Positions 11,465-40,415 of a stretch of 40,691 nt of DNA are shown piece by piece. The DNA lies in contig JBDIWM010000015.1 of assembly GCA_039638595.1 (NCBI GenBank), forward strand, positions 1-40,691. The letters are read 5' to 3'. The stretch is from Atribacterota bacterium (lineage in GTDB: Bacteria; Atribacterota; Atribacteria; Atribacterales; Caldatribacteriaceae). The number at the start of each line of letters is the position of its first letter. The stretch's first letter is position 1. Position numbers and translations under genes: made by a program. The notes under the pieces were generated by a model, which was not told the DNA's origin, searched no databases, and saw nothing but the letters and a program-made list of their open reading frames with translations.

Positions 11465-11497
11465 GCACTCCTTCCTCGGTTTCCGTACTCACAATAT

Positions 11498-11654
11498 GTG
11501 ACCCCGCTTTTGCGGTGTGCCAACCGCTTTGATCCTCGTCCTCAAAAAGGTGGGTACCCTCTCAAGTAAACCTTGGTTTACCTGACGTTCGGGTTCCCGA
11601 GACAAGGGTGTTGGGTCAAAGCCTTCTTTGGCATCACCAACAAAGCAGGGTCAC
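11498..11654 (-). ncRNA. Structured RNA between aspS and rpsA: 6S RNA candidate or rpsA leader
   Basis: On the minus strand this stretch folds into nested helices that I checked base by base. A 13-bp closing stem joins 11654-11642 to 11510-11498 with one GU pair, a 7-bp perfect inner stem joins 11622-11616 to 11532-11526, and a 9-bp apical hairpin spans 11584-11563 with loop CAAG. A small TCGGG/CCCGA hairpin lies at 11600-11589. A promoter at 11686-11714 would give a transcript of about 180 nt. Size, long closing stem and location just downstream of aspS recall 6S RNA (one Bacillus 6S gene lies there, as I remember). No terminator separates it from rpsA, so a cis-acting leader is equally possible. 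SRP RNA, RNase P RNA and tmRNA motifs were not found. Confidence 0.5.
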
Positions 11655-21572: not shown

Positions 21573-21584
21573 TTCTCTCACTTC

Positions 21585-24600: not shown

Positions 24601-25440
24601 TCAGTACTCTTCAGGCATATTCTGTAATTCCTCGTACGAAAAAACCGGTCCGTCTTTACAGACGTAGTAAGGACCGATGTTACACCGACCACACTTACCA
24701 AGACCACACTTCATCCGCATTTCCAGAGTGGTGATAATACGGTTTGCCTGAAAACCCATTTCAAGGAGCGTTTTAACGGTAAATTTTATCATAATTGGTG
24801 GTCCACATACGAGGGCATCGAAATTTCGTGCATCGATACGTAATTCTTTCAGTACTTCTGGGACAAGTCCCACTCTTCCATTCCAAGAATTTTCTCCGCG
24901 ATCCACGGTAACAAGAAGCGAGAGATCCTTCCGCTTCCCCCAAGCCTCCAATTCCCAACGAAAAACAAGGTCCTGAGGCGTCCTGGCTCCATAAAGGATA
25001 AAGACTTCACCAAAGTCCTTGCGGTACGGAGCACTCAGGACATAATTGATGAGGGAACGAAGTGGAGCAAGTCCAATCCCTCCTCCAACAAAGAGGAGGT
25101 TTTGTCCCTTAAGTGAGTCAATCGGAAAACCATTTCCATAGGGACCTCGCACTCCAATAAGCTCTCCAGGATTTAGTCGATGGAGTGCTTCGGTAACCGT
25201 ACCAGTTCTTTTAATACTGAATTCCAAGAGTACCTCTTGAGTGGGCGAAGAAGTGATGGAAAACGGTGCTTCTCCTTTTCCGGGGACAAAAACTTCAGCA
25301 AACTGACCAGGACGATACTCGAAATCCTGGGGGCGTCGAACACGGAAAGTTTTAATATCTTTGGTTTCCTCAATGACTTCCTGAATTAGAACTAATTCAG
25401 GAAGATAGATGTTCTTGACAGGTACGGATAGAGTATCCAA
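24601..25440 (-). CDS. FlxA-like FAD/NAD(P)H reductase with [2Fe-2S] tail
   Basis: A ferredoxin-NADP reductase-fold flavoprotein of the sulfhydrogenase-gamma/AsrB/FlxA group. RPGQFAEV (43-50) and APFSITSS (58-65) bind FAD. GGGIGLAPLR (119-128) and VCGPPIMIKF bind the nicotinamide nucleotide. C245, C250, C253 and C261 (CxxxxCxxCx7C) bind a [2Fe-2S] cluster of the dihydroorotate dehydrogenase electron-transfer type. It would exchange electrons between NAD(P)H and the two ferredoxin-like neighbours. The start is TTG 25440, inside the preceding gene (44 bp overlap). Context with an FlxB-, FlxC- and FlxD-like set next to HdrA points to an NAD(P)H dehydrogenase module for Hdr rather than to sulfite reductase. 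Confidence 0.82.
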   Translation of the reverse strand: MDTLSVPVKNIYLPELVLIQEVIEETKDIKTFRVRRPQDFEYRPGQFAEVFVPGKGEAPFSITSSPTQEVLLEFSIKRTGTVTEALHRLNPGELIGVRGPYGNGFPIDSLKGQNLLFVGGGIGLAPLRSLINYVLSAPYRKDFGEVFILYGARTPQDLVFRWELEAWGKRKDLSLLVTVDRGENSWNGRVGLVPEVLKELRIDARNFDALVCGPPIMIKFTVKTLLEMGFQANRIITTLEMRMKCGLGKCGRCNIGPYYVCKDGPVFSYEELQNMPEEY

Positions 25441-26410
25441 TGTGTTTCGCCATCCTTTCCACTACTTCTCGAATGTCCCAATTCACTGGACAAATTTCCC
25501 GGCAAATTCCACATCCCACACATCCATAGTATCCTTCTCGCAGCGGAAGATAAGAAAACTTGTGCATAACCCTCTGTCGCACTCGTTCCTTTCCGGTGGG
25601 GCGAGGATTATGCGAAGAAGCGTGTAAAGTAAACTTGGGAAACATACAACTGTCCCAGGTTTTTAGGGCCAAACCTTGTAACCTTCCGTCCACAGACAAG
25701 TCAAAACAGTAACAGGTAGGACAAAGAAAAGTACAGGCACCGCAATTGATGCATCGCCAGGTCAATTCTTTCCATATCGTTTCCTCAAAGTGTGCATAAA
25801 GCTTTTGGGGAAAATCAGGCGGTAAAGACGGCGGGAGTTTGGCTTTGAGTTCTTCTTCTGCAAACATCAGGGCCTTCCTTTGCTCGGCGTCGATTCTCTT
25901 TCCCTCTTCAAAAAGCGCGAGGTCATCATTTTCCACATAGAGTCTTTCCTGGAAAGGGAAAACAAAAATACTCTCTTTATCTCGCCATAGAGGGCTACCC
26001 CCCACAAGGGAACAGAAACAAGTTTCTGGCATAGTGGAGCAACCGAGAATGACAAGACGAAGGTTTTTTCTTCTCTGCCAGTAATTTTTATCGACGTAGT
26101 CTTTTTTCAAAAAATTGCCATCCAAAACTTCAACCACCGCTTTCGCTTCGCAGGGAAGGAGGAAAAGGAAACGCAAAGTGGAATCATTTCCTGCTGTTTC
26201 TGTCAATTTCCAGCTTCGATCCTGAAAAGAAAACCGATACACTTCCTCCCATTCTGGAAAAACGACCTCTTTCGGTGTTTTAACCACTCTCAAACCCTGG
26301 GGAAGAAGTGTACAATACATTTTTTGTGCCTGCTCGGTGACCAGGAACGAATCACTGTGCTCGGCCACCTTTTTCCTGAACGTTTCCAGAGTAATAAGTT
26401 TTTCTCTCAT
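25397..26410 (-). CDS. FlxB-like two-[4Fe-4S] electron-transfer protein
   Basis: A 337-residue member of the hydrogenase-beta/AsrA/FlxB group. A unique N-terminal domain carries extra cysteines (GCSTMPETCFC region). Two clusters follow, numbered from the longer frame: C222/C225/C228/C232 (CINCGACTFLCP) and C299/C302/C305/C309 (CVGCGICREICP). It should wire the FlxA-like flavoprotein to the rest of the complex. I chose ATG 26410 because GAGGG lies six bases upstream; the ATG at 26416 touches the ribosome binding site. It follows the FlxC-like gene by a few bases. The same fold serves in sulfhydrogenases and anaerobic sulfite reductases, so assignment to Flx rests on neighbours. Confidence 0.8.
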   Translation of the reverse strand: MREKLITLETFRKKVAEHSDSFLVTEQAQKMYCTLLPQGLRVVKTPKEVVFPEWEEVYRFSFQDRSWKLTETAGNDSTLRFLFLLPCEAKAVVEVLDGNFLKKDYVDKNYWQRRKNLRLVILGCSTMPETCFCSLVGGSPLWRDKESIFVFPFQERLYVENDDLALFEEGKRIDAEQRKALMFAEEELKAKLPPSLPPDFPQKLYAHFEETIWKELTWRCINCGACTFLCPTCYCFDLSVDGRLQGLALKTWDSCMFPKFTLHASSHNPRPTGKERVRQRVMHKFSYLPLREGYYGCVGCGICREICPVNWDIREVVERMAKHIGYSIRTCQEHLSS

Positions 26411-26421
26411 GATCATCCCTC

Positions 26422-27360
26422 TTACCTGATGAACTCATTTGGATCATTCTCCCGATAGGTGAGAAGCGGTGGTTCTTTATCAGGGTTGACGCCAGCTTCA
26501 AAATCAAAGTTTTCCCGAATTAACTCCTCAACCTTACAGGGCAAAAGGGCAATGGGAATACCGACTGGACAGGCTCTTTCACAAGCCCCGCATTCTACAC
26601 ATCGTCCTGCCATGTGGAGGCTTCGTCCAATGTGGAAAAGCAAATTTTCATTGGGCGTTGCTGCTCCGCTCAACCAGTAGGGGCGTTGCATTTCGGCGAA
26701 ACACTCCTTACAGTAGCACAAAGGGCAAGCATTTCGACACGCGTAACAGCGAATGCATTTTTTGGACTCCCCAGCAAAAAACGTCCACCGTTCTTCTCTA
26801 GAAAGTGTATCAACTTTCTTTAGAGCATTCTGATTCCATCGTTCCCGGGGGATGTACTGAACCTCCTGGCCTACTAAGTAGTCATAAAGCGGAGGATTGG
26901 GATGAAGACACCGCTGACAGGTTGCATCTAAAAAAGGACCAATGCTCATGGTCTTTCCTCGAAAAGTAAAGCTATCTAAGTGCCATTCAAAATCCGAGGG
27001 CCGAACTGATCCGAAATGTTCCTCAAGTTTTTTTCGGTCTACCATTCCGTAACAGGGAATCCCAGCGATAACGAGGTTTTCCCGTTTGACCTGTCTCTCT
27101 CGAATGAGTACCATGATTGCTCTCACATCGCAGGCCTTAGCAAAGATGGCGACCTTTCTCTCTTTTGCGTTTCTATCCAGGAGGTACTTGACGAGGTTAT
27201 GTCCACAAAAATGATTAAAAGTGAGCTGGGTAACATCTTCCTTTTTCTGACACAAAAATGGGCGAGCTCGAAAAGGAAGAGTACCATGGGCATAACCAAT
27301 GATCCATTCGACCTCACCAAGGATTTTGACGCTCAACGCACGGATTTCTTCTTCATACAT
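26422..27360 (-). CDS. FlxC-like two-[4Fe-4S] protein
   Basis: The 312-residue protein has an N-terminal domain resembling FrhB-related proteins (KVAIFAKACDVRAI, LVIAGIPCYG). Two ferredoxin motifs follow: C202/C205/C208/C212, followed by CYCKEC, and C254/C257/C260/C264. Such proteins connect NAD(P)H-oxidising flavoproteins to HdrA through an MvhD-type subunit in FlxABCD-HdrABC systems. It overlaps the MvhD/FlxD gene by 8 bp and is separated from the FlxB-like gene by a few bases. FrhB-type flavin binding cannot be confirmed by eye. Confidence 0.75.
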   Translation of the reverse strand: MYEEEIRALSVKILGEVEWIIGYAHGTLPFRARPFLCQKKEDVTQLTFNHFCGHNLVKYLLDRNAKERKVAIFAKACDVRAIMVLIRERQVKRENLVIAGIPCYGMVDRKKLEEHFGSVRPSDFEWHLDSFTFRGKTMSIGPFLDATCQRCLHPNPPLYDYLVGQEVQYIPRERWNQNALKKVDTLSREERWTFFAGESKKCIRCYACRNACPLCYCKECFAEMQRPYWLSGAATPNENLLFHIGRSLHMAGRCVECGACERACPVGIPIALLPCKVEELIRENFDFEAGVNPDKEPPLLTYRENDPNEFIR

Positions 27361-27793
27361 GGGAAGAAAACTCCTTTACCATCTTTTTGGAAGGACCGAT
27401 CCGCTTCACACTTTCCACCACATCCTGCACTACTTGGGCAAACCGCTGCCCTTCGGAAGCCGAAACCCAGGAAAATTGAACGCGCTCCTCTTCTACGCCC
27501 AGCCAATTCAAGAGTTCCTTAAGGAGAAAGAATTTCCGACGGGCAAAGTAGTTTCCACTGAAGTAATGGCAATCTCCTGGGTGACATCCTGAAACCAGCA
27601 CCCCATCGGCACCTTCACGGAGCGCTCTGAGAATGTATAGTGGATTTACGGCACCTGAACACGGCACACGGATGACCCGAACATTGGGAGGATACTGAAT
27701 CCGACTCACACCAGCAAGGTCTGCCCCAGCGTAACTACACCAGTGACAGAGAAACGCCACAATTTTAGGTTCCCATTGATTTTCGTTTACCAT
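27353..27793 (-). CDS. MvhD/FlxD-type [2Fe-2S] electron-transfer subunit
   Basis: The 146-residue protein carries the full MvhD motif set: CHWCSYAGADLAG (C16/C19), VIRVPCSGAV (C45) and SGCHPGDCHY (C70/C75). MvhD passes electrons from an input module (hydrogenase, formate dehydrogenase or Flx) to the HdrA flavin. The gene overlaps the stop of the giant HdrA by 7 bp and the FlxC-like start by 8 bp, exactly where an adaptor between HdrA and Flx proteins would be expected. It is distinct from the second, degenerate MvhD-like gene at 34.3 kb. Confidence 0.88.
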   Translation of the reverse strand: MVNENQWEPKIVAFLCHWCSYAGADLAGVSRIQYPPNVRVIRVPCSGAVNPLYILRALREGADGVLVSGCHPGDCHYFSGNYFARRKFFLLKELLNWLGVEEERVQFSWVSASEGQRFAQVVQDVVESVKRIGPSKKMVKEFSSHV

Positions 27794-30700: not shown

Positions 30701-32265
30701 ACACCCTTTCGGGAGGTATGAAGATTTTCATCCGTAGCCACAGTTCCCCAGGAAGTCAGTTCAACACCGCTCTCGGGAAGTTCAATCTTTTGACCAATGG
30801 CCACGATAAAAAGGTCTGCTTCCACTTCGTACTCCATCCCTGGAATGACCTCTGGTCTCCGACGCCCTGATTCGTCCGGAGCACAAAGCTTCATGACGTG
30901 GGTTTCCATCACAAGTTTCCCATCCTTTTCCAAAAACCTTTTGGGGCTGGCGCAAAAATAGAATTCTACCCCTTCTTCCTGAGCCTCTTCAATCTCTTCT
31001 TCGCGGGCTGGCATCTCTTCCCGGGAACGCCGGTAGTATATTGCTACTTTTTTGGCTCCCTTCCGCAAGGCACTTCGAGCGCAGTCGATAGCCACATTAC
31101 CACCGCCTATGACCACTACTGTCTCGGCGTCCGGCACTTCTTCGCCCTTATTCAGCAGCATGAGATAACTTAAACCATCCACAATCCGGGGGTGGTTTTC
31201 ACCTTCCACTCCTGCTTTCAGCCCTTTCCAGGCACCACAGGCCAGGTATACCGCCTGGAAACCGTTCTGGAACAAATCTTCAATTGTGAAATCTTTTCCC
31301 CATCTCTTCTGCAACGCAACCTGAATACCCATGTTTTTAATGGTATTAATCTCTCGTTCCACAATATCCCTTGGCAAGCGATACGCAGGAATCCCCAGCG
31401 TCATCATTCCACCTAAGCGATCCTGGGCTTCAAATACGGTGACCTGGTATCCCAGGAGTCGCAAAAAGTATGCACAGCTCAACCCACTGGGGCCACCGCC
31501 CACGATGGCAACACGCTTTTGTTGTTCTTCCTGTTTTTTAGGAAGAGCAACAATGTTGTTTTTCACTTCAAAGTCAGCCAAAAATCTCTTCAAATATGGA
31601 ATTCCCACTGCCTCATCAAGAAGTCCCCTTTGACATTGTTCCATACAGGGATGGTGACAAGCCCGACCACAGATACCAGGAAAGGGATTGTCCATACGCA
31701 CCACTCGAAGCGCTTCTTCAAAACGTCCTTCTCGGATTAAAGCTACATATCCTTCGGCTTTCTGTTCCAGAGGACAGGCAGCCTGACAGTTTGGTACACC
31801 TCTTTTTCTAATTCCAAAGGCACTGGGAAAAGCCTGAGGAAAAGGTCGATAAATGGCTTTACGTTCCGAAAGGTTTCCGTCGAATTCATTTGGTACCTTT
31901 ATTGGACAAACGACTGCACAATCTCCACACCCGGTGCACTTCGTTACGTCCACAAATCGGCTTTTCTGTCTTATTTTTACGGTGAAATCACCCGGCACAC
32001 CTTGAATCGACTCAACCTCAGCGTAAGAAAGAACCTCAATATTGAGATGCCTCCCACACTCCACCAGTTTCGGAGAAAGAATACACATGGCGCAGTCATT
32101 GGTGGGAAAAGTTTTATCGAGCTTGGCCATCATTCCCCCAATGGAAAAATCTTTTTCCACCAGGTATACCTTAAAGCCAGCATTTGCAAGGTCGAGAGAA
32201 GCTTGGATTCCTCCAATACCACCACCAACCACCATTACTGCTCCGCTGAGGTGGTTATCGCTCAT
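27787..32265 (-). CDS. hdrA: Giant HdrA-GltD-HdrA fusion flavoprotein
   Basis: About 1,490 residues from ATG 32265. Numbers here are from an ATG 15 bases upstream that lacks a ribosome binding site. In order: HdrA Rossmann fold VVGGGIGG (17-24); TNDCAMC (60-66); [4Fe-4S] C115/C118/C121/C125; a GltD/NfnB-like insert with cysteine-rich head (C165, C169, C204-C216), FAD fold GGGPSG (261-266), NADPH site VVIGGGNVAID and YRRSREEMPA (416-425); cysteine cluster 618-634; HdrA signature QCVGSR and YCSSVCC (717-736). A second HdrA follows, with CRCGINIAG (951), CSPRTHE (1011), VVGGGLSG (1088-1095), QCVGSR and YCSRVCC (1236-1253) and a C-terminal two-[4Fe-4S] ferredoxin (1432-1473). Three FAD sites and an NADPH site make it a candidate bifurcating hub. 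It overlaps hdrC by 11 bp. Confidence 0.92.
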   Translation of the reverse strand: MSDNHLSGAVMVVGGGIGGIQASLDLANAGFKVYLVEKDFSIGGMMAKLDKTFPTNDCAMCILSPKLVECGRHLNIEVLSYAEVESIQGVPGDFTVKIRQKSRFVDVTKCTGCGDCAVVCPIKVPNEFDGNLSERKAIYRPFPQAFPSAFGIRKRGVPNCQAACPLEQKAEGYVALIREGRFEEALRVVRMDNPFPGICGRACHHPCMEQCQRGLLDEAVGIPYLKRFLADFEVKNNIVALPKKQEEQQKRVAIVGGGPSGLSCAYFLRLLGYQVTVFEAQDRLGGMMTLGIPAYRLPRDIVEREINTIKNMGIQVALQKRWGKDFTIEDLFQNGFQAVYLACGAWKGLKAGVEGENHPRIVDGLSYLMLLNKGEEVPDAETVVVIGGGNVAIDCARSALRKGAKKVAIYYRRSREEMPAREEEIEEAQEEGVEFYFCASPKRFLEKDGKLVMETHVMKLCAPDESGRRRPEVIPGMEYEVEADLFIVAIGQKIELPESGVELTSWGTVATDENLHTSRKGVFAGGDFVLGPATLVEAIAHGKRAAFAIDRYLAGKNGDVLSKIPAPLHLPWKERRIARVQTPKRAIDERIKGFLEVTQGYTIQEAQEEARRCLSCGECSECMRCVEACQRRAIQHEEREYTKEIRVGALVFATGSEIFDPTTAYRELGYKKYPNVVTSLDFERILNASGPFQGKVVRPSDKKVPQKVAFIQCVGSRDEERGHSYCSSVCCMYAIKEALVAKEHLAVEKRAESACALCGCETSLPLVDEREEKSILEVAVFAIDVRAYGKDFERYYERAKKEGIRFIKGKVGNVRELENGDLEVTYVDERGLVKKEVFDLVVLSVGLHISQEEQEKLENLGLSIAPWGLPYTDASSPIHSTKEGIFLCGTISSPKDIPDTVQEASACACEVASFLHSARFSEVREREYPIERDVSTEPVRIGVFICRCGINIAGIIDTSVLVEWARSFPGVVYAEENLYTCSQDTQERIKEKVREYALNRVIVASCSPRTHEGLFRETLREAGLNPYLFEMANIRDQCSWVHQEWPKEATEKAKDLVAMAIAKASLLEPLVSVPLAIQKSVLVVGGGLSGMVAAWEAAQQGLEVYLIEKEEELGGRLREFREYFTVEGQNLVQIKNELAAKVSNHPRIHVMVKSRVKESSGFVGNFETVIEEDGQIKTIKHGGVILATGGISYHPKEFLYGEDPRVMTQTELEKILGKEGFSQPGKVVMLQCVGSRNTEHPYCSRVCCLTAIKNALRIKKLYPEMEVYILYRDIRSYGLYERYYREARQMGVVFIPFADGDNPVVFREDNQLLVRVRTTILDEEINLPANWLILSTGIEPEIGNRELAQIFKVPLNQDGFFLEAHVKLRPVDFATEGVFVCGLAHGPKLAQESMIQAKACIARLMTILSKEIIHAEAQIARVMERWCTACGDCERVCQYGAVRINFEKNVAEVNPALCKGCGLCSATCKSGAITVQGFAPEQILSEVEYLSW

Positions 32266-32749
32266 CTTCCCTCCCTCCATCTACAAAAGAGAGTTTTTCA
32301 ATCTCTTTCTGATAAAAACCGAGGTATCTAGGAAAGGAAAAAATGGCATTCTCAAAAAGGTAATCGAGGCAGTCGCGCCGTAGCTTCTGCGTTCTTCGAT
32401 CCAGGTCTTCGACAATCTCCTTCCACTCTTTGCTCACGTATCCCTCTTCTACGGCGATTTCTCGAAGGACTTTGAGAATGTTGGTGAATTCAACATCTTG
32501 GGGACAGTGGGCGGTACAGCGGTAACACCCCACACACATCCACAGGTACTTAGAAGTAAGCACCTTTTCTTTTTCCCCTAAAAGAACCTGATGGATAATG
32601 CGCCGGGGGTTAAAATTCGCCTCCACTTCCGCCACCGGACATCCAGCTGTGCACACTCCACAAGAAAAGCATACCAGCAACCCTTCTCCTCCGGTACGCG
32701 AAGCAACCCGGTACTTAAACTGTGGATCAATCAACCGTTCTTCTATCAT
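32255..32749 (-). CDS. hdrC: HdrC-type two-[4Fe-4S] subunit
   Basis: The 164-residue protein has two clusters, C27/C30/C33/C37 (CFSCGVCTAGCP) and C72/C75/C78/C82 (CVGCYRCTAHCP), in the HdrC spacing. A helical tail follows (KVLREIAVEEGYVSKEWKEI). In heterodisulfide reductases HdrC links HdrA to the catalytic HdrB; here no HdrB (CCG-domain protein) is encoded, and the gene sits two bases after metF. It is therefore likely to hand electrons between HdrA and MetF/MetV. The 3' end overlaps the start of the giant HdrA. Confidence 0.88.
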   Translation of the reverse strand: MIEERLIDPQFKYRVASRTGGEGLLVCFSCGVCTAGCPVAEVEANFNPRRIIHQVLLGEKEKVLTSKYLWMCVGCYRCTAHCPQDVEFTNILKVLREIAVEEGYVSKEWKEIVEDLDRRTQKLRRDCLDYLFENAIFSFPRYLGFYQKEIEKLSFVDGGREDER

Positions 32750-32751
32750 GG

Positions 32752-33669
32752 TTACTCAACCTCTCTTAAGGGTCGAGGGTATAGGCCACTCCTTTTGACG
32801 ATCTCCGGTACAATACTTTCCCAGGCAATGGCCATGATATGCACTCCTCGAACTCCTTCTATTCTCTTTAGTTCCTCGATAATTTCCACACAGATTTTAA
32901 CTCCTTCCTCCTTTGGGTCCTCTGACCTTTTCATCCTCTCCACGAGGTATTGAGGAATTACAAGACCAGGCACTTCTTTTTGCATATAGTGCATAGCCTG
33001 GATAGACTTCACTGGTATGACACCGGCAAGAATGAACGCCCTTTCATGAAGCTTCATCTTTCGTACTTCTTCCATGAAGCGGGAGAATGCCTCCACATCA
33101 AAAACAGCTTGCGTTTGAATAAATTGGGCTCCCGCCTGGATTTTTTTTGCCAGACGGTACACCCGGAACTCCATGGGATCAGCAAAAGGATTTTCCCCAG
33201 CGCCTAGAAAAACTTTGACTTCTCCTTTCAAATTTTCACCATTTTCAAAAATCTTTCTGTCACGCATGTTATGGAAAATACTGAGAAGCTGGACAGAATC
33301 GACGTCAAAAACATTCTTTGCCTGAGGATGGTTGCCCATACTCTGGTGGTCACCGGTAAGGCACAAGATGTTCTCAATTCCCAGAGCACAGGCTCCCAAA
33401 AAATCACTCTGGAGTGCAATGCGATTACGATCTCGACATACCATCTGCATTACTGGCTCTATTCCGCAATCCTGAGCGATAAGACAACTGGCAAGACTAC
33501 TTAAGCGCACAATGGCGGTCTGGTTATCGGTGATGTTTACCGCGTCAACATACCCTCGTAACTGCAAGCATTTTTTCTCAATGATACTTCTTTCGGTTCC
33601 CTTAGGTGGTCCCACTTCAGCCGTAACAGCAAAGATTCCCCTACCAAGAATTTCTGCTAAAAAGCTCAT
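32752..33669 (-). CDS. metF: Methylene-tetrahydrofolate reductase, catalytic subunit MetF
   Basis: MetF reduces 5,10-methylene-THF to 5-methyl-THF. The 305-residue TIM barrel shows AVTAEVGPPKGT at the N-terminus (catalytic Glu region), DAVNITDNQTA, LCLTGDHQSMGNHPQAKNVF (flavin-binding region) and AGAQFIQTQAVFDVEAF. It is the short FMN/FAD-type MetF that works with MetV in acetogens. Its ATG overlaps the metV stop as ATGA, and hdrC follows after two bases, so MetV, MetF and HdrC are stoichiometrically coupled by translation. No NADH-binding RnfC2-like subunit is adjacent. Confidence 0.94.
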   Translation of the reverse strand: MSFLAEILGRGIFAVTAEVGPPKGTERSIIEKKCLQLRGYVDAVNITDNQTAIVRLSSLASCLIAQDCGIEPVMQMVCRDRNRIALQSDFLGACALGIENILCLTGDHQSMGNHPQAKNVFDVDSVQLLSIFHNMRDRKIFENGENLKGEVKVFLGAGENPFADPMEFRVYRLAKKIQAGAQFIQTQAVFDVEAFSRFMEEVRKMKLHERAFILAGVIPVKSIQAMHYMQKEVPGLVIPQYLVERMKRSEDPKEEGVKICVEIIEELKRIEGVRGVHIMAIAWESIVPEIVKRSGLYPRPLREVE

Positions 33670-34316
33670 AATGTCACGTCCTCACGAAGCATCTTTCTCT
33701 GACCCCCATACCGAGAGGAAGACCAATTTTTGGGTGGTTGAATCGAGAGAAGCTCTTCCAGCCTACCCTGCATTTTCATACGGTCGTAGATGAGCTGCCA
33801 GGCACAATCCCGCTCTGACTTCACCTCACACTTACCACCTTTCGATCCTCCACAGGGACCATTGAGTAAGCTTTTGGCACAGCGAGTCACCGGACAAACA
33901 TTCCCAAAGTGATGAACGGTACAATCTCCACATCCTGAGCAGCGTTCTTCCCATATTCCCTGGTGGACCGGCGCCCCCATGAAGGTGGTATTGAGACCGG
34001 GTAAAACCAACTTATCAGGAAAACATTCGGAGAGAACCTGAGTTCCAATTCCACAGGCCAACGAAAGGAGCACCTCGTACGAAGCAATCTCCTTTTGAAG
34101 CACAAGGTTGAATTCCGGTTCGCACTGCCTCTCCGCCACCGAAGCTTGCGCTGTAAATCCTTTCAAACGGAGGATAGCAGCAAGTTCCCTGGCTTCTTTC
34201 TCCCCCCCAGACATGCATACCGTAACACAGGTCCCACAAGCTAAAACCAGCACACTCCGAGAAGTTTTTAGGTTATCTACGATTTCGCGAATGGGTTTCC
34301 TCTCTCCAACAATCAT
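33666..34316 (-). CDS. metV: MetV, cysteine-rich partner of MetF
   Basis: The 216-residue protein has the MetV pattern: ACGTCVTVCMSGG (C27/C30/C34), LACGIGTQ (C88), CSGCGDC (C126/C129/C132), NVCPVTRCAKSLLNGPCGG (C141, C146, C155), and C163 and C171. MetV binds iron-sulfur clusters and/or zinc and enables MetF to accept electrons in Moorella and other acetogens. ATGA overlaps exist at both ends, with the MvhD-like gene upstream and metF downstream. The metal content (zinc versus [4Fe-4S]) cannot be read from sequence. Confidence 0.93.
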   Translation of the reverse strand: MIVGERKPIREIVDNLKTSRSVLVLACGTCVTVCMSGGEKEARELAAILRLKGFTAQASVAERQCEPEFNLVLQKEIASYEVLLSLACGIGTQVLSECFPDKLVLPGLNTTFMGAPVHQGIWEERCSGCGDCTVHHFGNVCPVTRCAKSLLNGPCGGSKGGKCEVKSERDCAWQLIYDRMKMQGRLEELLSIQPPKNWSSSRYGGQRKMLREDVTL

Positions 34317-34684
34317 TTTGATTCTCCCACGGTGTTCAATAAGAGACTTTCAAGGACTCTCTGAATCTCTCCCACCTTTTCGGCTGTGACCAACACACAC
34401 GCAACTTTCTTATCGATGTCCGCTTCTTTTAGAAGAGTATTCACTCTTTGAGTTTTCCGAAATGCAAAATCACTTCCTCGCTGATTCACACAACTTCCCA
34501 AAGGACAGCCCGCCAAAATCAAATACTGATAGCCGTTTTCCAAAACCTTCAACATCATTTCCTCATTAACCACCCCTAAGCAGGGGACAGCCATAACGTC
34601 CATTTCATGCTCTGGAAATACCTCAAGAAAGCGGAGGAGCGCCGTAAAACCGCCTTGATTACAACCAATCGATGCAATCCTCAT
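34313..34684 (-). CDS. Divergent MvhD-like subunit
   Basis: The 123-residue protein aligns by eye to MvhD: IGCNQGG where FxCNWC is expected, VPCLGVVN (C35), and AGCPLGSC (C60/C65). Compared with the FlxD-like paralogue in this window, the second cysteine of the first pair is missing and CHPGDC has become CPLGSC. Four cysteines remain, enough for one [2Fe-2S] cluster. It is joined by ATGA overlaps to the HdrA-like half upstream and metV downstream, suggesting it wires the upstream HdrA-like proteins to MetV/MetF. Confidence 0.78.
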   Translation of the reverse strand: MRIASIGCNQGGFTALLRFLEVFPEHEMDVMAVPCLGVVNEEMMLKVLENGYQYLILAGCPLGSCVNQRGSDFAFRKTQRVNTLLKEADIDKKVACVLVTAEKVGEIQRVLESLLLNTVGESK

Positions 34685-36096
34685 TGTTCTTCACTCCAGG
34701 TAGACTTGATAAAGAAAAAATCTTCGGTATACAGGCTATTGATTCCGATAGCTGAGGCAGGACAAAAAGCCATACAGATACCACACAAATGACACTGTTC
34801 CCAGTTAATCCGGGCTTTTTTTCTCTTGCTCTCTCCCTCGATACTGACGGCTCTCCAGGGACAGGTTCGAAAACAAGTGAGACAAAGCACACATTTTTCC
34901 TCATCGACTGAAGCACATTCGGAAAGAGTAAGCCTTCCCTGGTTCAAGTACTCTTCCACTGCCTGGGCAAGCTGTAGGAAGTTGTCCTGATCACGTCGGG
35001 AGAAGACGAATACCCCATCAAGAAACGAAGAAAAAGGTGGTAAATTTGGGTTCTCAAGGTCGCCAAATTCCTCTTCTTCCTTTTCTCCTTTCCACCAGGG
35101 TATGGCGGGAAAGGGAAGATATGTTCGTCGAGGCACATAGATCACCCAGTCTGCTCTGATTTTGAGGCTGTATCCATCTCTTTCAGTTTCAAACTCCACC
35201 CAAGCTCCTTGCATTTCTAAAGTAGGTTGTAGCTTCACCGCATCCATCCTGACTTTTTCAAATAAAACTCCCTGATTTCGAGCCTCGCGATACTCTTGCT
35301 CTAAGGAAGCACCAGCCACTACGATTTCCTGGGCCAAAACGAAAACTTGTGCTCGTTCCCTCTCGGCCAGGCGCCGAGAAAGCCCAAAGACTTCTTTCCA
35401 ATCCTCCAACAATGAGGAACTATCTGGAGGCACAATGAAAACAAGGGTTTTATTTCGCATCGTCTTTCGAGTCATACCATTCTTAAATTGGTTAAGGGGA
35501 AGTATTCGTCTTGTTTCTTCGACCTCAGGAGGAATAAAAAGCGGTGGTTTTTCATCCCATTCAGGAAGAAGAATGATTGCTCCTACTGTTTCCCCTGAAG
35601 GGGAATCATAGAGAAGAAAGTTTATTCCCTCTCTTTTTACCAGAAGCGGTTCCTTTCTCACAATGTATGGAATATCCAAGCGGGACAGTGCTTCTTCCAG
35701 CATCGTCTCTCGACGAGGAGTAACGAGCACTCGTTTTTCGGGCAGAAGCTGAGTAGCCTTAACAGAGGGGGGTTTCTTTTGCCTTTTTATAGCATCCATA
35801 AAGAAATGTTCGAATGTTTGTAGAGCCTTGGTGGGGAAAGCATGCTGTATTTCTTCCCAGGGGAAAACCCTGATTTTCAATGGATTTACCTTTCTTTCTA
35901 GAGCGAATCTGAGCGTTCGCTCTCTATCCCAGGAAAAACTGTCAGTTAGAATAAAGATTTCCTCAAAAGATTCAGGAGAAAAATCTTCATCGTATCTTTT
36001 CACTTTTATGTCAATCCCTGTTTTCTTTTGCACTTCCCAAATCCAGGAAGGTGATACGCTCCAATTGTCTGTATAAAGCCAGAGTGCTTTCCTCAA
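34681..36096 (-). CDS. Divergent HdrA C-terminal-half-like protein with two [4Fe-4S] clusters
   Basis: The 471-residue protein ends in a dicluster ferredoxin (C402/C405/C408/C412 and C435/C438/C441/C445). The central part (RAQVFVLAQEIVVAG, YREARNQGVLFEKV, WVIYVP) parallels the region of HdrA that follows the CCxxxIK motif, as seen in the giant HdrA (YREARQMGVVFI). The N-terminal 130 residues look like a Rossmann-type segment but lack GxGxxG and all HdrA cysteines. It starts with TTG, overlapping the stop of the upstream HdrA-like gene (TTGA), eight bases after GGAGG. I read it as one half of a split, diverged HdrA; the function of its N-terminal part is unknown. Confidence 0.68.
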   Translation of the reverse strand: MRKALWLYTDNWSVSPSWIWEVQKKTGIDIKVKRYDEDFSPESFEEIFILTDSFSWDRERTLRFALERKVNPLKIRVFPWEEIQHAFPTKALQTFEHFFMDAIKRQKKPPSVKATQLLPEKRVLVTPRRETMLEEALSRLDIPYIVRKEPLLVKREGINFLLYDSPSGETVGAIILLPEWDEKPPLFIPPEVEETRRILPLNQFKNGMTRKTMRNKTLVFIVPPDSSSLLEDWKEVFGLSRRLAERERAQVFVLAQEIVVAGASLEQEYREARNQGVLFEKVRMDAVKLQPTLEMQGAWVEFETERDGYSLKIRADWVIYVPRRTYLPFPAIPWWKGEKEEEEFGDLENPNLPPFSSFLDGVFVFSRRDQDNFLQLAQAVEEYLNQGRLTLSECASVDEEKCVLCLTCFRTCPWRAVSIEGESKRKKARINWEQCHLCGICMAFCPASAIGINSLYTEDFFFIKSTWSEEQ

Positions 36097-37079
36097 AGCT
36101 TTATCCTCCCTATCGTTTTTCGGACTCTCTGGCTAACTTGCCAGGCGCTATGCAGACTGCCCTCGATATCGCGAGGACCACAGGCAGTTCCGCAAACAAA
36201 AACTCTTTCCTGTGAAGTGGTCCCCTCACCATAATCTCTGATAAATCCCTCAGGAGTAAAATTGAGCCGTAACATCTCCCCAATTTTTTGCGTTCCTGGT
36301 GAGGGAACCATACCCACCGAAAGGATAACTGCATCATATCCTGAGGGCTCCTCGCCAGAGTTCCCTTCTAAAATCAAGAAAATCTTTCCGTCCTTTTCCT
36401 TCGCTTCAAAAGGCATTTGCCGTACCAGCCGAATTTTCTTTGTTGTTTCCCAAAGTTTCTCGGTCTTCTTTCCGACTATCTGGAGATCCATGTAGTAAAA
36501 GTCGATTTCCAGCTGAGGATACAGAAAGAGTAAATCCTCAGACAGACGCAGAGCATAGCGGCAGCACACTTGAGAACAGTATCCACGTTTCTCTTTAACG
36601 TTTCTTGAACCAACGCACTGTACAAATGCTATTCTCCTCCAGTGGGCAAACTTTTGAAAAATACCCTGGTTTAGACTCGTTTCAATTTCAAATCCGGTAT
36701 AAATATTTGGGAACTTTTTCCAACCTAAATTGGGTAATTCTCGAGCATCAAAAGGGGAAGCACCAGTGGCAACAACGAGAGCCCTTCCATTGAGAACTTC
36801 TCGATTGGTAAACAGGAAAAACATTTCTGCTTTCTTTTGCACTTCCTGAACCGTCCGCCCAGAGAATACCGGAAACTCTGGTTTTTTCCTCTTCACCGAG
36901 AGCGCTCTGCAAACCCCACAGTATAGACACTCTGAAGTGGCCTTACACCCCAGCTGCAAAGCAAGACCCCCTGGGGATCTTTCCTCCTCCAGAACGGCAA
37001 CCCGAAAATCACTCTGGAGATACTCTGCAGTTTTCAATCCTGCCACTCCTCCTCCTAAAATCAGGACGTCAAAATCCAA
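36093..37079 (-). CDS. HdrA-like FAD protein (short form)
   Basis: The 328-residue protein has the FAD fold ILGGGVAGL (7-15), a cysteine group C45/C51/C54/C57 where HdrA has its TNDCAMC region, the HdrA hallmark QCVGSR (154-159) with YCSQVCC (167-173), and a C-terminal FAD motif FVCGTACGPRDI. It lacks the ferredoxin domains of full HdrA, which may be supplied by the next gene. The start is TTG 37079 with AGGAGG eight bases upstream; fhs ends 20 bases before it. Position between fhs and MvhD-like/metV suggests a role in the MetFV electron path. Confidence 0.82.
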   Translation of the reverse strand: MDFDVLILGGGVAGLKTAEYLQSDFRVAVLEEERSPGGLALQLGCKATSECLYCGVCRALSVKRKKPEFPVFSGRTVQEVQKKAEMFFLFTNREVLNGRALVVATGASPFDARELPNLGWKKFPNIYTGFEIETSLNQGIFQKFAHWRRIAFVQCVGSRNVKEKRGYCSQVCCRYALRLSEDLLFLYPQLEIDFYYMDLQIVGKKTEKLWETTKKIRLVRQMPFEAKEKDGKIFLILEGNSGEEPSGYDAVILSVGMVPSPGTQKIGEMLRLNFTPEGFIRDYGEGTTSQERVFVCGTACGPRDIEGSLHSAWQVSQRVRKTIGRIKL

Positions 37080-37099: not shown

Positions 37100-38794
37100 T
37101 CAGAATAGACCAATCACGTTTCCTTCAGAATCAATATCAATTTTATTTCCTGCTGGCACAGAGGGCAATCCAGGCATGGTACGCATTTCACCACAAAGAG
37201 GATAAAGAAAACCAGCACCAATAGAGGGACGAATGTCCCGGATGGGAAGTTTGAAATTTCGAGGTCTTCCTTTTAACTTCGGGTCATGAGAAAGAGAAAG
37301 GTGGGTTTTCGCCATGCATATTGGGAGCTTATCCCAACCAAAGTCGGTAAATTGTTTTATTTTCTCCTCTGCCATGGGCTCATACACAACACCATCAGCA
37401 CCATACACTTTGGTGGCGATGATTTCAATTTTTTCCTTAATCGCAATGTCCAGAGGATAGAGGAACTGGAATCGATTCGGTTCCTCGCAGGCCTGGACAA
37501 CCGCTTCAGCAAGTTTCCGGCCGCCTTCTCCTCCCCTAGCCCATACCTCAGAAACTGTAGCCGCAAAGGCACCATTTTCCAGGGCAATCCTTTGCACTGT
37601 TTCAATTTCCCGGTCGGTATCGGTAGAAAAAACGTTAATTGCTACGACCACTGGTACCCCAAAAAGACGGGCATTCTCAATTTGCTTTATGAGGTTTTCT
37701 GACCCTTTTACCAGGGCATCAAGATCTTCCTTTATAATTTCTGCATCCAGGGGTTTCCCAGGCACCACCTTATATTTACCACTGTGCATCTTTAAAGCTC
37801 TGATGGAACAGACCATCACCACGCAATCAGGCTTAAGACCACTATAACGGCATTTAATATCCATGAATTTTTCCATCCCACAATCAGCTCCAAAACCACT
37901 TTCAGTCACCACGTACTCGCTCAATCTCAATGCAATCTGGTCCGCAATGATGGAACTATTCCCATGGGCAATGTTGGCAAAAGGTCCAGCATGCACAAAA
38001 CAGGGGGTATTTTCCAGAGTCTGCAAAAGGTTCGGCTTAATAGCGTCTCGAAGAAGCACCGTCATGGCTCCAGCACACTGCAAATCCTCCGCCGTAACTG
38101 GTTTTTTATCCTTCGTGTATCCAACTACAATTTTTCCTAACCTCTTGCGGAGGTCAAAAATATCCGTGGTTAATGCTAAAATTGCCATGACTTCTGAAGC
38201 CACCGCAATATCAAAGCCACTCTCCCGGGGAATCCCATTATCCTTTCCCCCAAGACCGAGAACGATCTTTCGCAAGGCACGATCACTGATGTCCACCACC
38301 CGAGGCCAGCTTATACTGAACTGGTCAATACCAAGTTGATTTCCATGAAAAAGGTGATTATCAATGAAGGCAGAAAGAAGATTATGGGCTGCCGAAACGG
38401 CATGGGTGTCCCCGGTCAGGTGAAGGTTAAAATCTTCCATAGGAACTACCTGCGAATATCCGCCCCCCGCAGCACCACCTTTAATCCCAAATACCGGACC
38501 CAGGGACGGCTGTCGAATGCAGACGATGCTCCTTTTACCAATTCTATTAAGAGCCATCGAAAGACCGATGGTGGTTACGGTTTTTCCCTCTCCCAGCGGA
38601 GTCGGAGTAATCGCGGTAACGTCGATATATTTGCCAAGTGGATGGTGGTGAAACTTTTTCAAAACTTCCAGTGAAACCTTTGCTTTATACTTTCCGTAAA
38701 GCTCAATATCCTCTTCCTCCAGACCTAATGACCGGGCAATTTCCGTGATAGGTTGCATTTCTGCTCTCTGGGCAATTTCAAGATCACTGAGCAT
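37100..38794 (-). CDS. fhs: Formate-tetrahydrofolate ligase
   Basis: Fhs makes 10-formyl-THF from formate, ATP and THF, the first folate step of the methyl branch; the reverse reaction yields ATP in syntrophic oxidisers. The 564 residues show ITPTPLGEGKT (62-72, ATP loop), RQPSLGPVFGIKGGAAGGG, NLHLTGDTHA, and TESGFGADCGMEKFMDIKCR. The ATG is preceded by GGGAGGGAG. An AT-rich 70-bp stretch between the terminator of the corrinoid gene and this start probably contains the operon promoter, though I cannot place -10 and -35 boxes with confidence. Confidence 0.97.
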   Translation of the reverse strand: MLSDLEIAQRAEMQPITEIARSLGLEEEDIELYGKYKAKVSLEVLKKFHHHPLGKYIDVTAITPTPLGEGKTVTTIGLSMALNRIGKRSIVCIRQPSLGPVFGIKGGAAGGGYSQVVPMEDFNLHLTGDTHAVSAAHNLLSAFIDNHLFHGNQLGIDQFSISWPRVVDISDRALRKIVLGLGGKDNGIPRESGFDIAVASEVMAILALTTDIFDLRKRLGKIVVGYTKDKKPVTAEDLQCAGAMTVLLRDAIKPNLLQTLENTPCFVHAGPFANIAHGNSSIIADQIALRLSEYVVTESGFGADCGMEKFMDIKCRYSGLKPDCVVMVCSIRALKMHSGKYKVVPGKPLDAEIIKEDLDALVKGSENLIKQIENARLFGVPVVVAINVFSTDTDREIETVQRIALENGAFAATVSEVWARGGEGGRKLAEAVVQACEEPNRFQFLYPLDIAIKEKIEIIATKVYGADGVVYEPMAEEKIKQFTDFGWDKLPICMAKTHLSLSHDPKLKGRPRNFKLPIRDIRPSIGAGFLYPLCGEMRTMPGLPSVPAGNKIDIDSEGNVIGLF

Positions 38795-38860: not shown

Positions 38861-38883
38861 AAAAAAGGGGGTAATCCCCCTTT
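38861..38883 (-). terminator. Rho-independent terminator after the corrinoid protein gene
   Basis: On the minus strand an 8-bp stem AAAGGGGG/CCCCCTTT with loop ATTA is followed at once by a T run (six T in total including stem). It lies five bases after the corrinoid gene stop, so that gene forms a largely separate unit from fhs. Confidence 0.75.
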
Positions 38884-38887
38884 CTCT

Positions 38888-39529
38888 TCAGTTAAAATGC
38901 AAAAGTTCCTTGGCCTTATCCACTGCAGAAGCTGCATCGGGTGCATACCCATCAGCACCAACTTCATCAGCAAACTTTTGGGTTACCGGTGCCCCACCAA
39001 TCATAATCTTTACCTTATCCCTGATACCAGCCTCGTTGAAAGCTTTGATGTTTTCCCGGATCTGCACCATGGTAGTGGTAAGAAGAGCCGACATGCCCAC
39101 CAGCTGAGGATCATTTTCCTTAACAGCCTGAATGAACTTTTCAGCTGGTACGTCAATTCCCAAATCAATCACTTCAAAACCTGCTCCTTCCATCATCATG
39201 GAAACCAGGTTCTTCCCGATGTCATGGAGGTCCCCCTTCACGGTTCCAATGACCATCTTCGCCATTGGTTTTACTCCAGTCTCTGAAAGTTTTGGCTTTA
39301 GAATTTCCATCCCTGCTTTCATAGCTCGAGCCGCAATGAGCACTTCGGGGACGTAGATTTCGTTGTTCTTAAACTTTACCCCCACCTCGTTCATTCCCTT
39401 AATGAGTCCACCAGTTAAAACATCTCCCGGAGTCATGCCCTCGTCAAGGGCTCTCTGAACCAACTCAGCTACTGCCTTAGCATTCCCAGCGAAAAGCTCC
39501 TGAGCAATCTGTTCCAGTACTTCTGCCAT
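38888..39529 (-). CDS. Methyltransferase cognate corrinoid protein (MtbC/MtmC type)
   Basis: The 213-residue two-domain protein has an N-terminal B12-binding-2 helical cap (KAVAELVQRALDEGMTPGDVL, YVPEVLIAARAM) and a Rossmann cobalamin domain with GDLHDIGKNLV, where His102 is the lower cobalt ligand, followed by GIDVPAEKFI and SALLTTTM. Such proteins carry methyl groups from methanol, methylamines or methoxy compounds to THF or another acceptor. The matching substrate methyltransferase is not in the window; AcsE or an unseen MtxB-like enzyme could be its partner. The ATG is preceded by GGGAGGG. It is divergent from the formate channel gene and ends in a terminator. Confidence 0.9.
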   Translation of the reverse strand: MAEVLEQIAQELFAGNAKAVAELVQRALDEGMTPGDVLTGGLIKGMNEVGVKFKNNEIYVPEVLIAARAMKAGMEILKPKLSETGVKPMAKMVIGTVKGDLHDIGKNLVSMMMEGAGFEVIDLGIDVPAEKFIQAVKENDPQLVGMSALLTTTMVQIRENIKAFNEAGIRDKVKIMIGGAPVTQKFADEVGADGYAPDAASAVDKAKELLHFN

Positions 39530-39548
39530 ATCGAAACCCTCCCTCTCT

Positions 39549-39621
39549 ATTATTTGAAAATAATATTAGCAAAAAAAAGGAGAAAAATCTATAAAATAGA
39601 TATATAATTTTAAAAAATTAT
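39549..39621. repeat. Three short inverted repeats in the divergent corrinoid/channel promoter region
   Basis: Three perfect palindromic elements follow one another: ATTATTT-GA-AAATAAT at 39549-39564, ATCTAT-AAA-ATAGAT at 39587-39601, and ATAATTTT-AA-AAAATTAT at 39604-39621. The last covers part of the TATAAT box of the plus-strand promoter. They may be operators for a regulator of both divergent genes. Their AT-richness means chance occurrence is more likely than for GC-balanced repeats. Confidence 0.5.
39603..39608 (+). promoter_or_regulatory. -10 box upstream of the formate/nitrite channel gene
   Basis: A consensus TATAAT lies 37 bases before the ATG. The matching -35 position holds GAGAAA, a poor hexamer, so the promoter may need an activator or an extended upstream AT-rich element. 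Confidence 0.4.
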
Positions 39622-39644
39622 TAAGTTATGAGAAGGAGGAAAAT

Positions 39645-40415
39645 ATGTCAGGAAAGGAGACTTTCGTCAAATGGTGTCAGGTTAAAAATCAAAAAGATGC
39701 CCTCAGCCTTTTTATTGGAGGAATTTTGGCTGGCGTGTACATCGGTTTTGCTAGTCAACTCTTCACTCTGGTCACGGCAGTGCCAGTTCTCTCGTTCGGG
39801 ATGACTCAACTTCTGGGAGGCGTGGCTTTCTCGGTAGGACTGGTCATGGTGGTCTTGGGCAAAGCTGATCTATTCACTGGAAACTGCCTTCTTTTTGCGC
39901 AGTGTTTCCATGGGTACCGCTACGTCCAAATAACCCTTTATAACTGGTTGGTTGTATACTTGGGAAATTTTCTGGGCTCTTTCTTTCTTGCTCTACTTTA
40001 CGCCCACTCCGGTCTTTTTAAAATGGGAGGAGGAGTGCTGGTACAGCGTATAGCAGATATTGCTCAGACTAAAATCAGTCTTACTTTTTCCGAGGCTTTC
40101 GTGAGGGGAATACTCTGCAACTGGTTGGTTTGTCTTGCGGTTTTCTTCTGTATCATGGCGGAAAACAACCTAAATCGTATTCTGGCCATTCCTGGCCCAA
40201 TCACCACGTTTGTAGCCCTCGGTTATGAGCACAGTATTGCCAACATGTACTTTTTCCCTGCAGGAATAATGGCACAAAAATACCTGGGAGAAGCATCACC
40301 CATCACCTGGGGTCAAGTCATTTTTACCAACCTTTTCCCAGTCACTCTGGGAAACATAGTAGGAGGAAGTTTCTTCGTAGGATTTCTGTATTGGATTATA
40401 CTCCGTAATGAGTGA
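39645..40415 (+). CDS. Formate/nitrite transporter family channel
   Basis: The 256-residue integral membrane protein has six hydrophobic segments. It carries the FNT landmarks GVYIGFASQL, GKADLFTGNCLLFA and GILCNWLVCLAVFF, and a C-terminal GYEHSIANMYFFPAG. FocA-type pentamers pass formate; related channels pass nitrite or hydrosulfide. Location beside the corrinoid gene and fhs favours formate exchange, since formate is the substrate of Fhs. The ATG follows AAGGAGG at a good distance. No signal of a partner formate dehydrogenase or pyruvate formate-lyase is present in the window. Confidence 0.88.
   Translation: MSGKETFVKWCQVKNQKDALSLFIGGILAGVYIGFASQLFTLVTAVPVLSFGMTQLLGGVAFSVGLVMVVLGKADLFTGNCLLFAQCFHGYRYVQITLYNWLVVYLGNFLGSFFLALLYAHSGLFKMGGGVLVQRIADIAQTKISLTFSEAFVRGILCNWLVCLAVFFCIMAENNLNRILAIPGPITTFVALGYEHSIANMYFFPAGIMAQKYLGEASPITWGQVIFTNLFPVTLGNIVGGSFFVGFLYWIILRNE

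Follow-up and report, generated by a model that had tools for sequence, protein, structure and literature searches.

Acetogenic bacteria possess a four-component O-demethylase system consisting of methyltransferase I (MT I), a corrinoid protein, methyltransferase II (MT II) and an activating enzyme, in which MT I enzymes such as OdmB and VdmB belong to the UroD superfamily (PMC10418091). For Acetobacterium woodii, 23 MT I enzymes have been reported, and in its engineered homoformatogenesis, made by deleting the hydrogen-dependent carbon dioxide reductase (HDCR), methyl groups pass through tetrahydrofolate to formate as the end product; the calculated upper limit of the energy yield was 0.4 ATP for each methyl group turned into formate, and the fhs2 gene of this organism is paired with a formate transporter gene, fdhC (PMC10284823). 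In Ruegeria pomeroyi, a corrinoid protein and a folate methyltransferase (MtgC and MtgD) that are shared by glycine betaine demethylation and methionine synthesis were documented genetically (PMC12478193). The subject of the present analysis is a corrinoid protein gene of a bacterium of the order Atribacterales in the phylum Atribacterota, few members of which have been cultured, located between fhs and a divergent gene for a formate channel of the FocA type. It lies in a stretch of 40,691 nucleotides (the window; JBDIWM010000015.1), which is one whole contig (G000:C15) of a 2,125,596-base genome in 83 contigs that is 97.16% complete. The gene pair is real and conserved, and the protein is most like the carrier of the acetogen O-demethylase system, but its candidate UroD partners are many and scattered.

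The corrinoid protein (Table 1) exceeded the cut-offs of Pfam B12-binding_2 (83.7 bits, cut-off 23) and B12-binding (105.5 bits, cut-off 32.1). It contains D-x-H-x-x-G as DLHDIG at residue 100, together with SxL and GG motifs, all of which we take to be cobalamin motifs, and it therefore has both the Pfam domain pair and the D-x-H-x-x-G motif of methyltransferase-cognate corrinoid proteins. The best NCBIfam models were MtgC, pyl_corrinoid and MtbC, each under its cut-off (NF047996 MtgC 237.7 bits, cut-off 370; TIGR02370 pyl_corrinoid 211.5 bits, cut-off 215.3), and no model of the AcsC/D type (CdhD family) was among its NCBIfam matches, in agreement with an initial annotation that had placed it with the methanol/methylamine/methoxy type rather than with AcsC/AcsD. 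The closest named relative of the gene, at 97% identity, belongs to a 'Candidatus Atribacteria' metagenome-assembled genome.

The gene had also been assigned its own terminator, and on the minus strand, 7 nucleotides past the stop codon, the sequence does read GGGGG-ATTA-CCCCC-TTTTTT, a GC hairpin followed by six T. A terminator scan reported the palindrome on the plus strand only, and its single site equals the mean of 1.0 for shuffled sequence; it is the location of the hairpin and its T-run that make it a good intrinsic terminator. Control by a cobalamin riboswitch was considered and rejected, the sole Rfam match over the gathering score in the window being a 6S RNA (RF00013, 64 bits) at 11497-11654 on the minus strand.

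The position between fhs and the divergent formate channel was confirmed. The fhs gene starts 93 bases beyond the end of the corrinoid gene on the same strand. The channel protein scored 240.6 bits with Pfam Form_Nir_trans (cut-off 34.6), and its top solved relatives are formate transporter (FocA) structures, the best match being FocA-type 3kly (5.6e-40); its scores with the NCBIfam FocA equivalog TIGR04060 (205.1, cut-off 290.1) and with the fnt subfamily model (224.7, cut-off 232.3) were both under the cut-offs.

Conservation of this arrangement was assessed in 16 loci. Of the other genomes of the order, 21 have a close homologue, and 16 of them contributed one locus each. The corrinoid gene (79-90% identity) adjoins fhs in all 16 loci, and in 14 of them it is flanked opposite fhs by a divergent focA (55-62% identity); the arrangement is therefore not due to chance. 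MetV and MetF follow in 14 loci, and the contigs of the other two end before that point. A homologue with at least 79% identity was found in 22 of the 25 genomes of the order, the window's genome included, and the remaining three belong to one genus: G006 (92% complete) has a 37% homologue, G008 (75%) has none, and G010 (60%) has a weak match in a longer frame. In G006, where the usual corrinoid gene was not found, genes for an AcsV-type activase (below cut-off), a UroD protein, a diverged corrinoid protein and an AcsE-like enzyme (by eye) lie side by side. Where focA is absent from the sampled loci, acs genes are present in one case (L154/L194). AcsB was detected in two of the 41 genomes searched, both from one genus of the order (G018 and G021), and in both of them acsB is divergent from the corrinoid gene at the usual position of focA, with acsC next to it (over cut-off in G018, called by eye in G021). 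These acsB-acsC genes, at L194:14702-19589 (G018:C65) and L193:1-4600 (G021:C117), would represent an alternative sink for the methyl group.

Neither a protein search nor a search with the B12-binding_2 model found a second corrinoid protein in the genome, and no AcsC/D-type protein was found there over cut-off. A weak CdhD match, considered as an AcsC/D partner for the AcsE-like enzyme of the window, proved to be the AcsE-like gene itself. There was no AcsB match in the genome, which thus does not have the gene content of a Wood-Ljungdahl acetogen. The genome carries one corrinoid activase, of the RACo type, on another contig. Among the methyltransferase partners that had been suggested, the MttB family (PF06253) had no match in the genome, MtaB not being among the families searched, whereas the UroD superfamily was abundant. 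The initial annotation's description of the corrinoid protein as stand-alone is thus correct locally, since no UroD match lies on its contig, but misleading for the genome, which has 22 UroD-superfamily genes elsewhere. A methyltransferase operon elsewhere with its own closer corrinoid partner, which had been named as the finding that would speak against the earlier interpretation, was looked for in the genome and was not found. All parts of a four-component O-demethylase (UroD-type MT I candidates, corrinoid protein, MT II and activase) are accordingly present, but not in one cluster, as the UroD genes and the activase are on other contigs and the MT II candidate lies approximately 16 kb from the carrier on the same contig.

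The UroD model gave 23 matches in the genome, corresponding to 22 open reading frames (ORFs), one of which is cut by a contig end. The ends of contigs G000:C77 (L131) and G000:C76 (L133) fall within UroD genes and are identical in sequence; the assembly has therefore divided one UroD gene or more, and the true number may differ from 22 by one or two. The number of matches per genome ranged from 4 to 38 (median 17) in the 25 genomes of the order and from 0 to 7 (median 0.5) in 16 genomes of the phylum outside it, a comparison in which any test value is indicative only because the genomes are related. A profile of 12 of the 22 proteins matched MtaA (4ay7) at 1.7e-14 and uroporphyrinogen decarboxylase at 2.6e-5 at best. 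At the place of the H-x-C of MtaA, presumably a metal-binding motif, the UroD proteins of this genome have H-x-C in 14 cases and H-x-D in 4, and UroD homologues linked to corrinoid genes in other genomes have H-x-C in 7 of 19 and H-x-D in 9 of 19. Taken together, the motif classes H-x-C-G and H-x-D-G cover 18 of the 22 proteins of this genome and 16 of the 19 corrinoid-linked ones.

Many of these genes lie close to sugar uptake genes. A solute-binding or permease gene of a sugar-type ATP-binding cassette (ABC) transporter was found within 5 kb of 15 of the 22 UroD genes and of 18 of 161 control ORFs (odds ratio 17), although the control count is somewhat lowered because the controls are all contig starts cut at 12 kb. 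Counted by locus, the link was present in 11 of 17 UroD loci and 4 of 20 controls (p 0.007). Queries from the same locus were held out in this test, and the controls were ORFs of at least 200 amino acids from 20 contigs that lack a UroD match, taken from the initial 12 kb of each. The UroD genes at L124, L126, L127, L130 and L139 had no sugar-type transporter neighbour in the count, and two at L135 were scored as not near with same-locus queries held out, yet Pfam places sugar ABC genes directly before them. For chosen UroD neighbours, Pfam identified SBP_bac_1 with BPD_transp_1 and Peripla_BP_4 with BPD_transp_2, and further types near UroD genes were LacI, GH38, GH116, Gfo/Idh/MocA and xylose-isomerase-like proteins. 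Next to one UroD gene with a sugar-type transporter lie a gene for a GATase1-like protein and one for a radical SAM protein that, by eye, looks similar to glycyl-radical activases (L134:3338-5029).

What the sequences show directly is the gene content, the single carrier, the kept gene order, the UroD expansion with its link to sugar transport, and clusters of corrinoid, UroD and sugar genes in other phyla. We infer from this that the UroD proteins are methyltransferases, that this carrier is their partner, that methylated sugars are their substrates, and that the methyl carbon ends up as formate. That one corrinoid carrier serves many UroD methyltransferases and feeds the folate branch is the reading we favour, at about even odds. 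The fuller scheme is put forward tentatively, as a possibility that is more likely wrong than right: a formatogenic fermentation of methyl ethers without acetyl-CoA synthase or formate dehydrogenase, in which one carrier takes methyl groups from about 20 UroD demethylases, for the most part associated with the import of sugars (which would make this an anaerobic way of using O-methylated sugars), and the folate branch turns them into formate that leaves through FocA. The corrinoid protein would be the single shared methyl carrier of the cell, or hub, and the roughly 20 UroD-superfamily methyltransferases, most of them near a sugar-type ABC transporter, would be spokes that each demethylate a different imported substrate. 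These substrates would most likely be O-methylated sugars or related methyl ethers, and their methyl groups would be passed to the single corrinoid protein, whose cobalt the RACo-type activase would keep reduced. The AcsE-like enzyme would move the methyl group from the carrier to tetrahydrofolate, and a MetVF/Hdr-like complex, FolD and Fhs would probably oxidise methyl-tetrahydrofolate to formate, with ATP formed at Fhs and formate let out by FocA. Fhs run in the oxidative direction yields ATP. Methionine synthesis would probably draw on this carrier and on the AcsE-like enzyme as well, together with a separate homocysteine methyltransferase.

If this scheme is true, UroD-superfamily proteins in sugar uptake clusters would gain a function as anaerobic demethylases of methylated sugars. 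Two isolates of the class Atribacteria are described (PMC11227167), and feeding tests are thus possible; isolates of this class include Thermatribacter velox B11 and Atribacter laminatus RT761. Searches of the open-access literature found no anaerobic O-demethylase for methylated sugars, the one route to turn up for a free methyl sugar being an aerobic P450 system, and no report of a single corrinoid protein serving several methyltransferases; for both, this is weak evidence of absence. The P450 system also demethylates a methyl sugar (6-O-methyl-D-galactose; PMC10033563), but it is an aerobic monooxygenase that gives formaldehyde, whereas the route proposed here would be corrinoid-based and anaerobic.

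The locus differs from each of the described systems in some respect. All four candidate component types of the acetogen O-demethylase are present here, and as in that system the methyl group would go to tetrahydrofolate, but there is one carrier, the approximately 20 MT I candidates are scattered mostly near sugar transport genes and not gathered in one operon, and acetyl-CoA synthase is lacking. Homoformatogenesis in A. woodii was obtained by a deletion, whereas no molybdopterin formate dehydrogenase over cut-off was found in the 25 genomes of the order, and the route here is predicted from genes. Type 1 mlp clusters are similar in having several UroD-type proteins with one corrinoid protein and an activase (PMC10418091); these clusters carry Mlp2 and Mlp3, whereas here no UroD gene is on the corrinoid contig and a folate methyltransferase is present. 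The Ruegeria system acts on glycine betaine in an aerobe, and here UroD proteins are found in place of any MttB family member.

As there is no UroD gene near the corrinoid gene in this genome, the pairing of carrier and UroD proteins is made by exclusion and by analogy with related loci elsewhere. A search of named genomes for relatives of the corrinoid protein left 80 loci, of which L044 and L045 are from the same order and the other 78 were compared. Their flanks extend up to 8 kb and are often shorter, and a single query was used for MttB, which makes missed MttB genes likely in the following counts: a UroD gene was found in the flanks of 14 loci, an MttB gene in 18, and both in none. For the 22 nearest loci, all from other phyla, a UroD gene was found in the flank of 12 and MttB in one. 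In a tree of 82 corrinoid proteins, the window protein fell in a set of 26 rows (support 99/93) with 15 UroD-linked and no MttB-linked members, apart from a mostly proteobacterial group of 55 rows (100/100) that holds all 18 MttB-linked rows; the rows were chosen by likeness to the window protein, MtgC itself is not among them, and long basal branches make the order at the base unsure.

Several of the related clusters combine corrinoid, UroD and sugar genes. L066 (Caldilineae) contains a permease, a corrinoid protein, a UroD protein and an L-fucose isomerase with all three Pfam domains. In Clostridium thailandense (L056), sugar ABC genes (by eye), a UroD gene, a small protein of the L-rhamnose mutarotase family (below cut-off) and a corrinoid gene are followed by a methyltetrahydrofolate:corrinoid methyltransferase (over cut-off), with RACo further along the same cluster. 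Peptococcaceae CEB3 (L057) has sugar ABC genes, a PfkB kinase, two UroD genes and a corrinoid gene; L064 has a UroD gene, a TTE1925-type mutarotase (below cut-off) and a corrinoid gene; and Thermoanaerobacter wiegelii (L047) has mannose-type phosphotransferase system parts (below cut-off), a UroD gene, RACo, a corrinoid gene and a gene for an MtaA-like UroD protein. UroD, pectate lyase, corrinoid and GH106 genes occur together in L061. The pectate lyase and GH106 near UroD and corrinoid genes there (L061:4065-11842) suggest methyl sugars derived from pectin as candidate substrates. UroD proteins of the window's genome have homologues in these corrinoid-linked clusters: L137_9 at 51% identity in L064, L134_6 and L133_3 both at 42% in L056, and L124_4 at 42% in L047.

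The last of these is relevant to another explanation, in which the corrinoid protein serves one unrecognised methyltransferase acting on methyl thiols, for example the MtaA-like product of L124:6929-8002, whereas the remaining UroD proteins act on sugars by some other chemistry. Compared singly, this protein, which is not one of the 12 in the profile, matched MtaA best (8.3e-28), with uroporphyrinogen decarboxylase next at 1.9e-13. In L047 (42%) and L048 (37%) a homologue of it is encoded immediately downstream of a related corrinoid gene, and Type 1 mlp clusters have been proposed to act on methyl-sulfur or methyl-selenium compounds (PMC10418091). Other UroD subfamilies of the genome (L137_9, L134_6 and L133_3) also have corrinoid-linked homologues, amid sugar genes, and we regard a single methyl thiol partner as very improbable, although the L124 protein itself may act on methyl thiols. 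It has H-x-C plus a later C, and similar top-scoring matches, candidate orthologues at most, occur in 16 of the 25 genomes of the order.

AcsE-like genes also adjoin relatives of the corrinoid gene in other genomes, for example in L052-L054 and L056. The suggestion in the initial annotation that AcsE acts on the corrinoid protein is therefore plausible, because AcsE-like genes stand beside corrinoid relatives and no AcsC/D protein over cut-off is present in the genome. The same proximity, with an AcsE-like gene within 3 kb of the corrinoid gene in all four loci examined from outside the order, also speaks for a reading in which the window protein is solely the cobalamin module of a split methionine synthase, with the AcsE-like protein as the folate module, a stand-alone homocysteine methyltransferase as the third, and the UroD proteins unrelated. 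A protein with the homocysteine S-methyltransferase domain alone is encoded at L127:3766-4668 (PF02574, 220.7 bits) and no MetH cap/cobalamin module was found elsewhere in the genome, so that the homocysteine, folate and cobalamin modules are all present separately. In G037 (L161), the only one of these four genomes without a UroD match, genes for corrinoid, AcsE-like and MetF-like proteins and for a protein with a weak, below-cut-off Met_synt_B12 match occur in succession. Because this run ends in a MetF-like gene and a weak match to the methionine synthase activation domain, methionine synthesis would fit as the older role of the carrier, and the common use of a corrinoid protein and folate methyltransferase in Ruegeria offers a parallel (PMC12478193). 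A split methionine synthase leaves unexplained, however, both the 22 UroD genes alongside the single corrinoid protein found and the UroD genes that flank 12 of the 22 nearest corrinoid relatives. As the sole explanation it is unlikely, but the methionine and demethylation roles can coexist, and a second role in methionine synthesis for the same carrier and AcsE-like enzyme is likely because the genome encodes the homocysteine methyltransferase domain as a separate protein and the search gave no cobalamin module of MetH.

With regard to the proposed formation of formate from methyl groups, FolD is present in the window's genome and in 23 of the 25 genomes of the order in all. A molybdopterin oxidoreductase over cut-off was found in none of these 25 and at least once in each of the 16 genomes outside the order. 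A possible remnant formate dehydrogenase at G000:C43 (19.5 bits, below cut-off, with two stops and overlapping flagellar-looking ORFs by eye) was judged spurious. Published work reports fdhAB in the other class only (PMC11227167), and the order of the window probably corresponds to its class Atribacteria, because both share the lack of formate dehydrogenase and two genomes with carbon monoxide dehydrogenase/acetyl-CoA synthase. In the main text of that paper the words 'corrinoid', 'methyltransferase', 'methoxy' and 'focA' each have 0 occurrences. Ten of the order's 25 genomes lack a PFL-like match, and focA-corrinoid-fhs is kept in all six of them whose loci were examined; with no PFL-like match there, the evident link between the folate pool and formate is Fhs. 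In the window's genome, classical PflB is not supported as a source of formate, since the one PFL-like enzyme is a member of the PFL2-3/glycerol dehydratase group (TIGR01774, 905.7 bits, over cut-off) and scored 137.9 against 994 with the PflB model TIGR01255, although this enzyme may still produce formate.

The initial annotation had suggested a coupling of methyl or formate uptake to the folate branch, and this is partly supported, by the kept synteny and the gene complement, with candidate methyltransferases scattered over the genome; on the direction of formate, which it left open, the gene set appears to point to methyl groups in and formate out, and we lean to export, although the same enzymes serve both directions. 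In the opposite case FocA would take up formate, and Fhs and FolD would convert it to one-carbon units for the reductive glycine pathway, purines and methionine, with the corrinoid protein at the biosynthetic end only. A reductive glycine pathway for assimilation of formate and CO2 was proposed in the phylum from genome analysis, and weak use of formate was reported for the isolate B11 (PMC11227167). The lack of a molybdopterin formate dehydrogenase over cut-off in the order would likewise leave formate to come from outside or from folate. The direction of flow cannot be read from sequence, but the joining of the corrinoid gene to the fhs-MetVF-Hdr genes, the UroD expansion, and acsB-acsC at the place of focA fit a methyl branch better, and formate import is, in our estimate, distinctly unlikely as the purpose of the locus.

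The following points, together with the lowered control count, weigh against the demethylation scheme. The corrinoid gene has no UroD gene near it, 10 of the 22 nearest corrinoid loci have none in the flank covered, and 4 of the 22 UroD proteins have neither motif form. Five genomes from outside the order that gave no UroD match (G028, G030, G036, G037 and G038) have relatives of the corrinoid protein at 58-64% identity, so the carrier has another, perhaps older, role, and the stand-alone homocysteine methyltransferase makes a split methionine synthase possible. Within the order, focA and acs genes are both missing next to the corrinoid gene at L153, and G008 and G010 (75% and 60% complete) carry 4-5 UroD matches with no close corrinoid relative found. 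The PFL-like enzyme of the genome could itself make formate, as its family includes formate C-acetyltransferases. Finally, a described isolate of the class makes weak use of formate, and with plain sugars formate was one of the compounds measured but is not listed among the products of this isolate (PMC11227167).

Table 1. Position, strand and basis of assignment of features in the window
Feature	Position	Strand	Basis
VhuD/MvhD-like iron-sulfur subunit	27353..27793	-	below cut-off
GltD-like/HdrA2 fusion oxidoreductase, 1,497 amino acids	27787..32280	-	NCBIfam
HdrC-like iron-sulfur protein	32255..32749	-	below cut-off
MetF-like methylene-tetrahydrofolate reductase	32752..33669	-	below NCBIfam cut-offs
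MetV-like protein (PF12225, MTHFR C-terminal)	33666..34316	-	Pfam
HdrA2 C-terminal piece	34313..34684	-	weak match
HdrA/ferredoxin-like protein	34681..36096	-	below cut-offs
HdrA-like flavoprotein part	36093..37079	-	below cut-off
fhs, formate-tetrahydrofolate ligase	37100..38794	-	NCBIfam 838 bits, cut-off 652
Intrinsic terminator, GGGGG-ATTA-CCCCC, T6	38861..38880	-	sequence; position 7 nucleotides after corrinoid gene
Corrinoid (methyl-carrier) protein, 213 amino acids	38888..39529	-	Pfam, NCBIfam, motifs; sole B12-binding_2 protein found in genome
FocA/FNT-type formate channel, 256 amino acids, divergent from corrinoid gene	39645..40415	+	Pfam, NCBIfam, PDB match
AsrA/HydB-like iron-sulfur protein	25397..26416	-	below cut-off
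AsrB/HydG-like NAD(P)-flavin protein	24601..25440	-	below cut-off
folC	23251..24582	-	over cut-off
AcsE-like methyltetrahydrofolate:corrinoid methyltransferase	22457..23257	-	NF005719 321.5 bits, cut-off 259

Beyond fhs, the run of genes on the minus strand continues with Hdr-like, MetV, MetF, AsrA/B-like, folC and AcsE-like genes. In the largest protein of this run, a GltD-like NAD(P) oxidoreductase is joined to an HdrA2-like part, and this fusion is a possible electron-bifurcating partner of MetVF. After the AcsE-like gene, the window contains two ORFs of 279 and 282 amino acids at 20742-22433 without a Pfam or NCBIfam match, and the start of the first of these is resembled, by eye, by a protein at L190:2441-3271 near the corrinoid-UroD cluster of G006.

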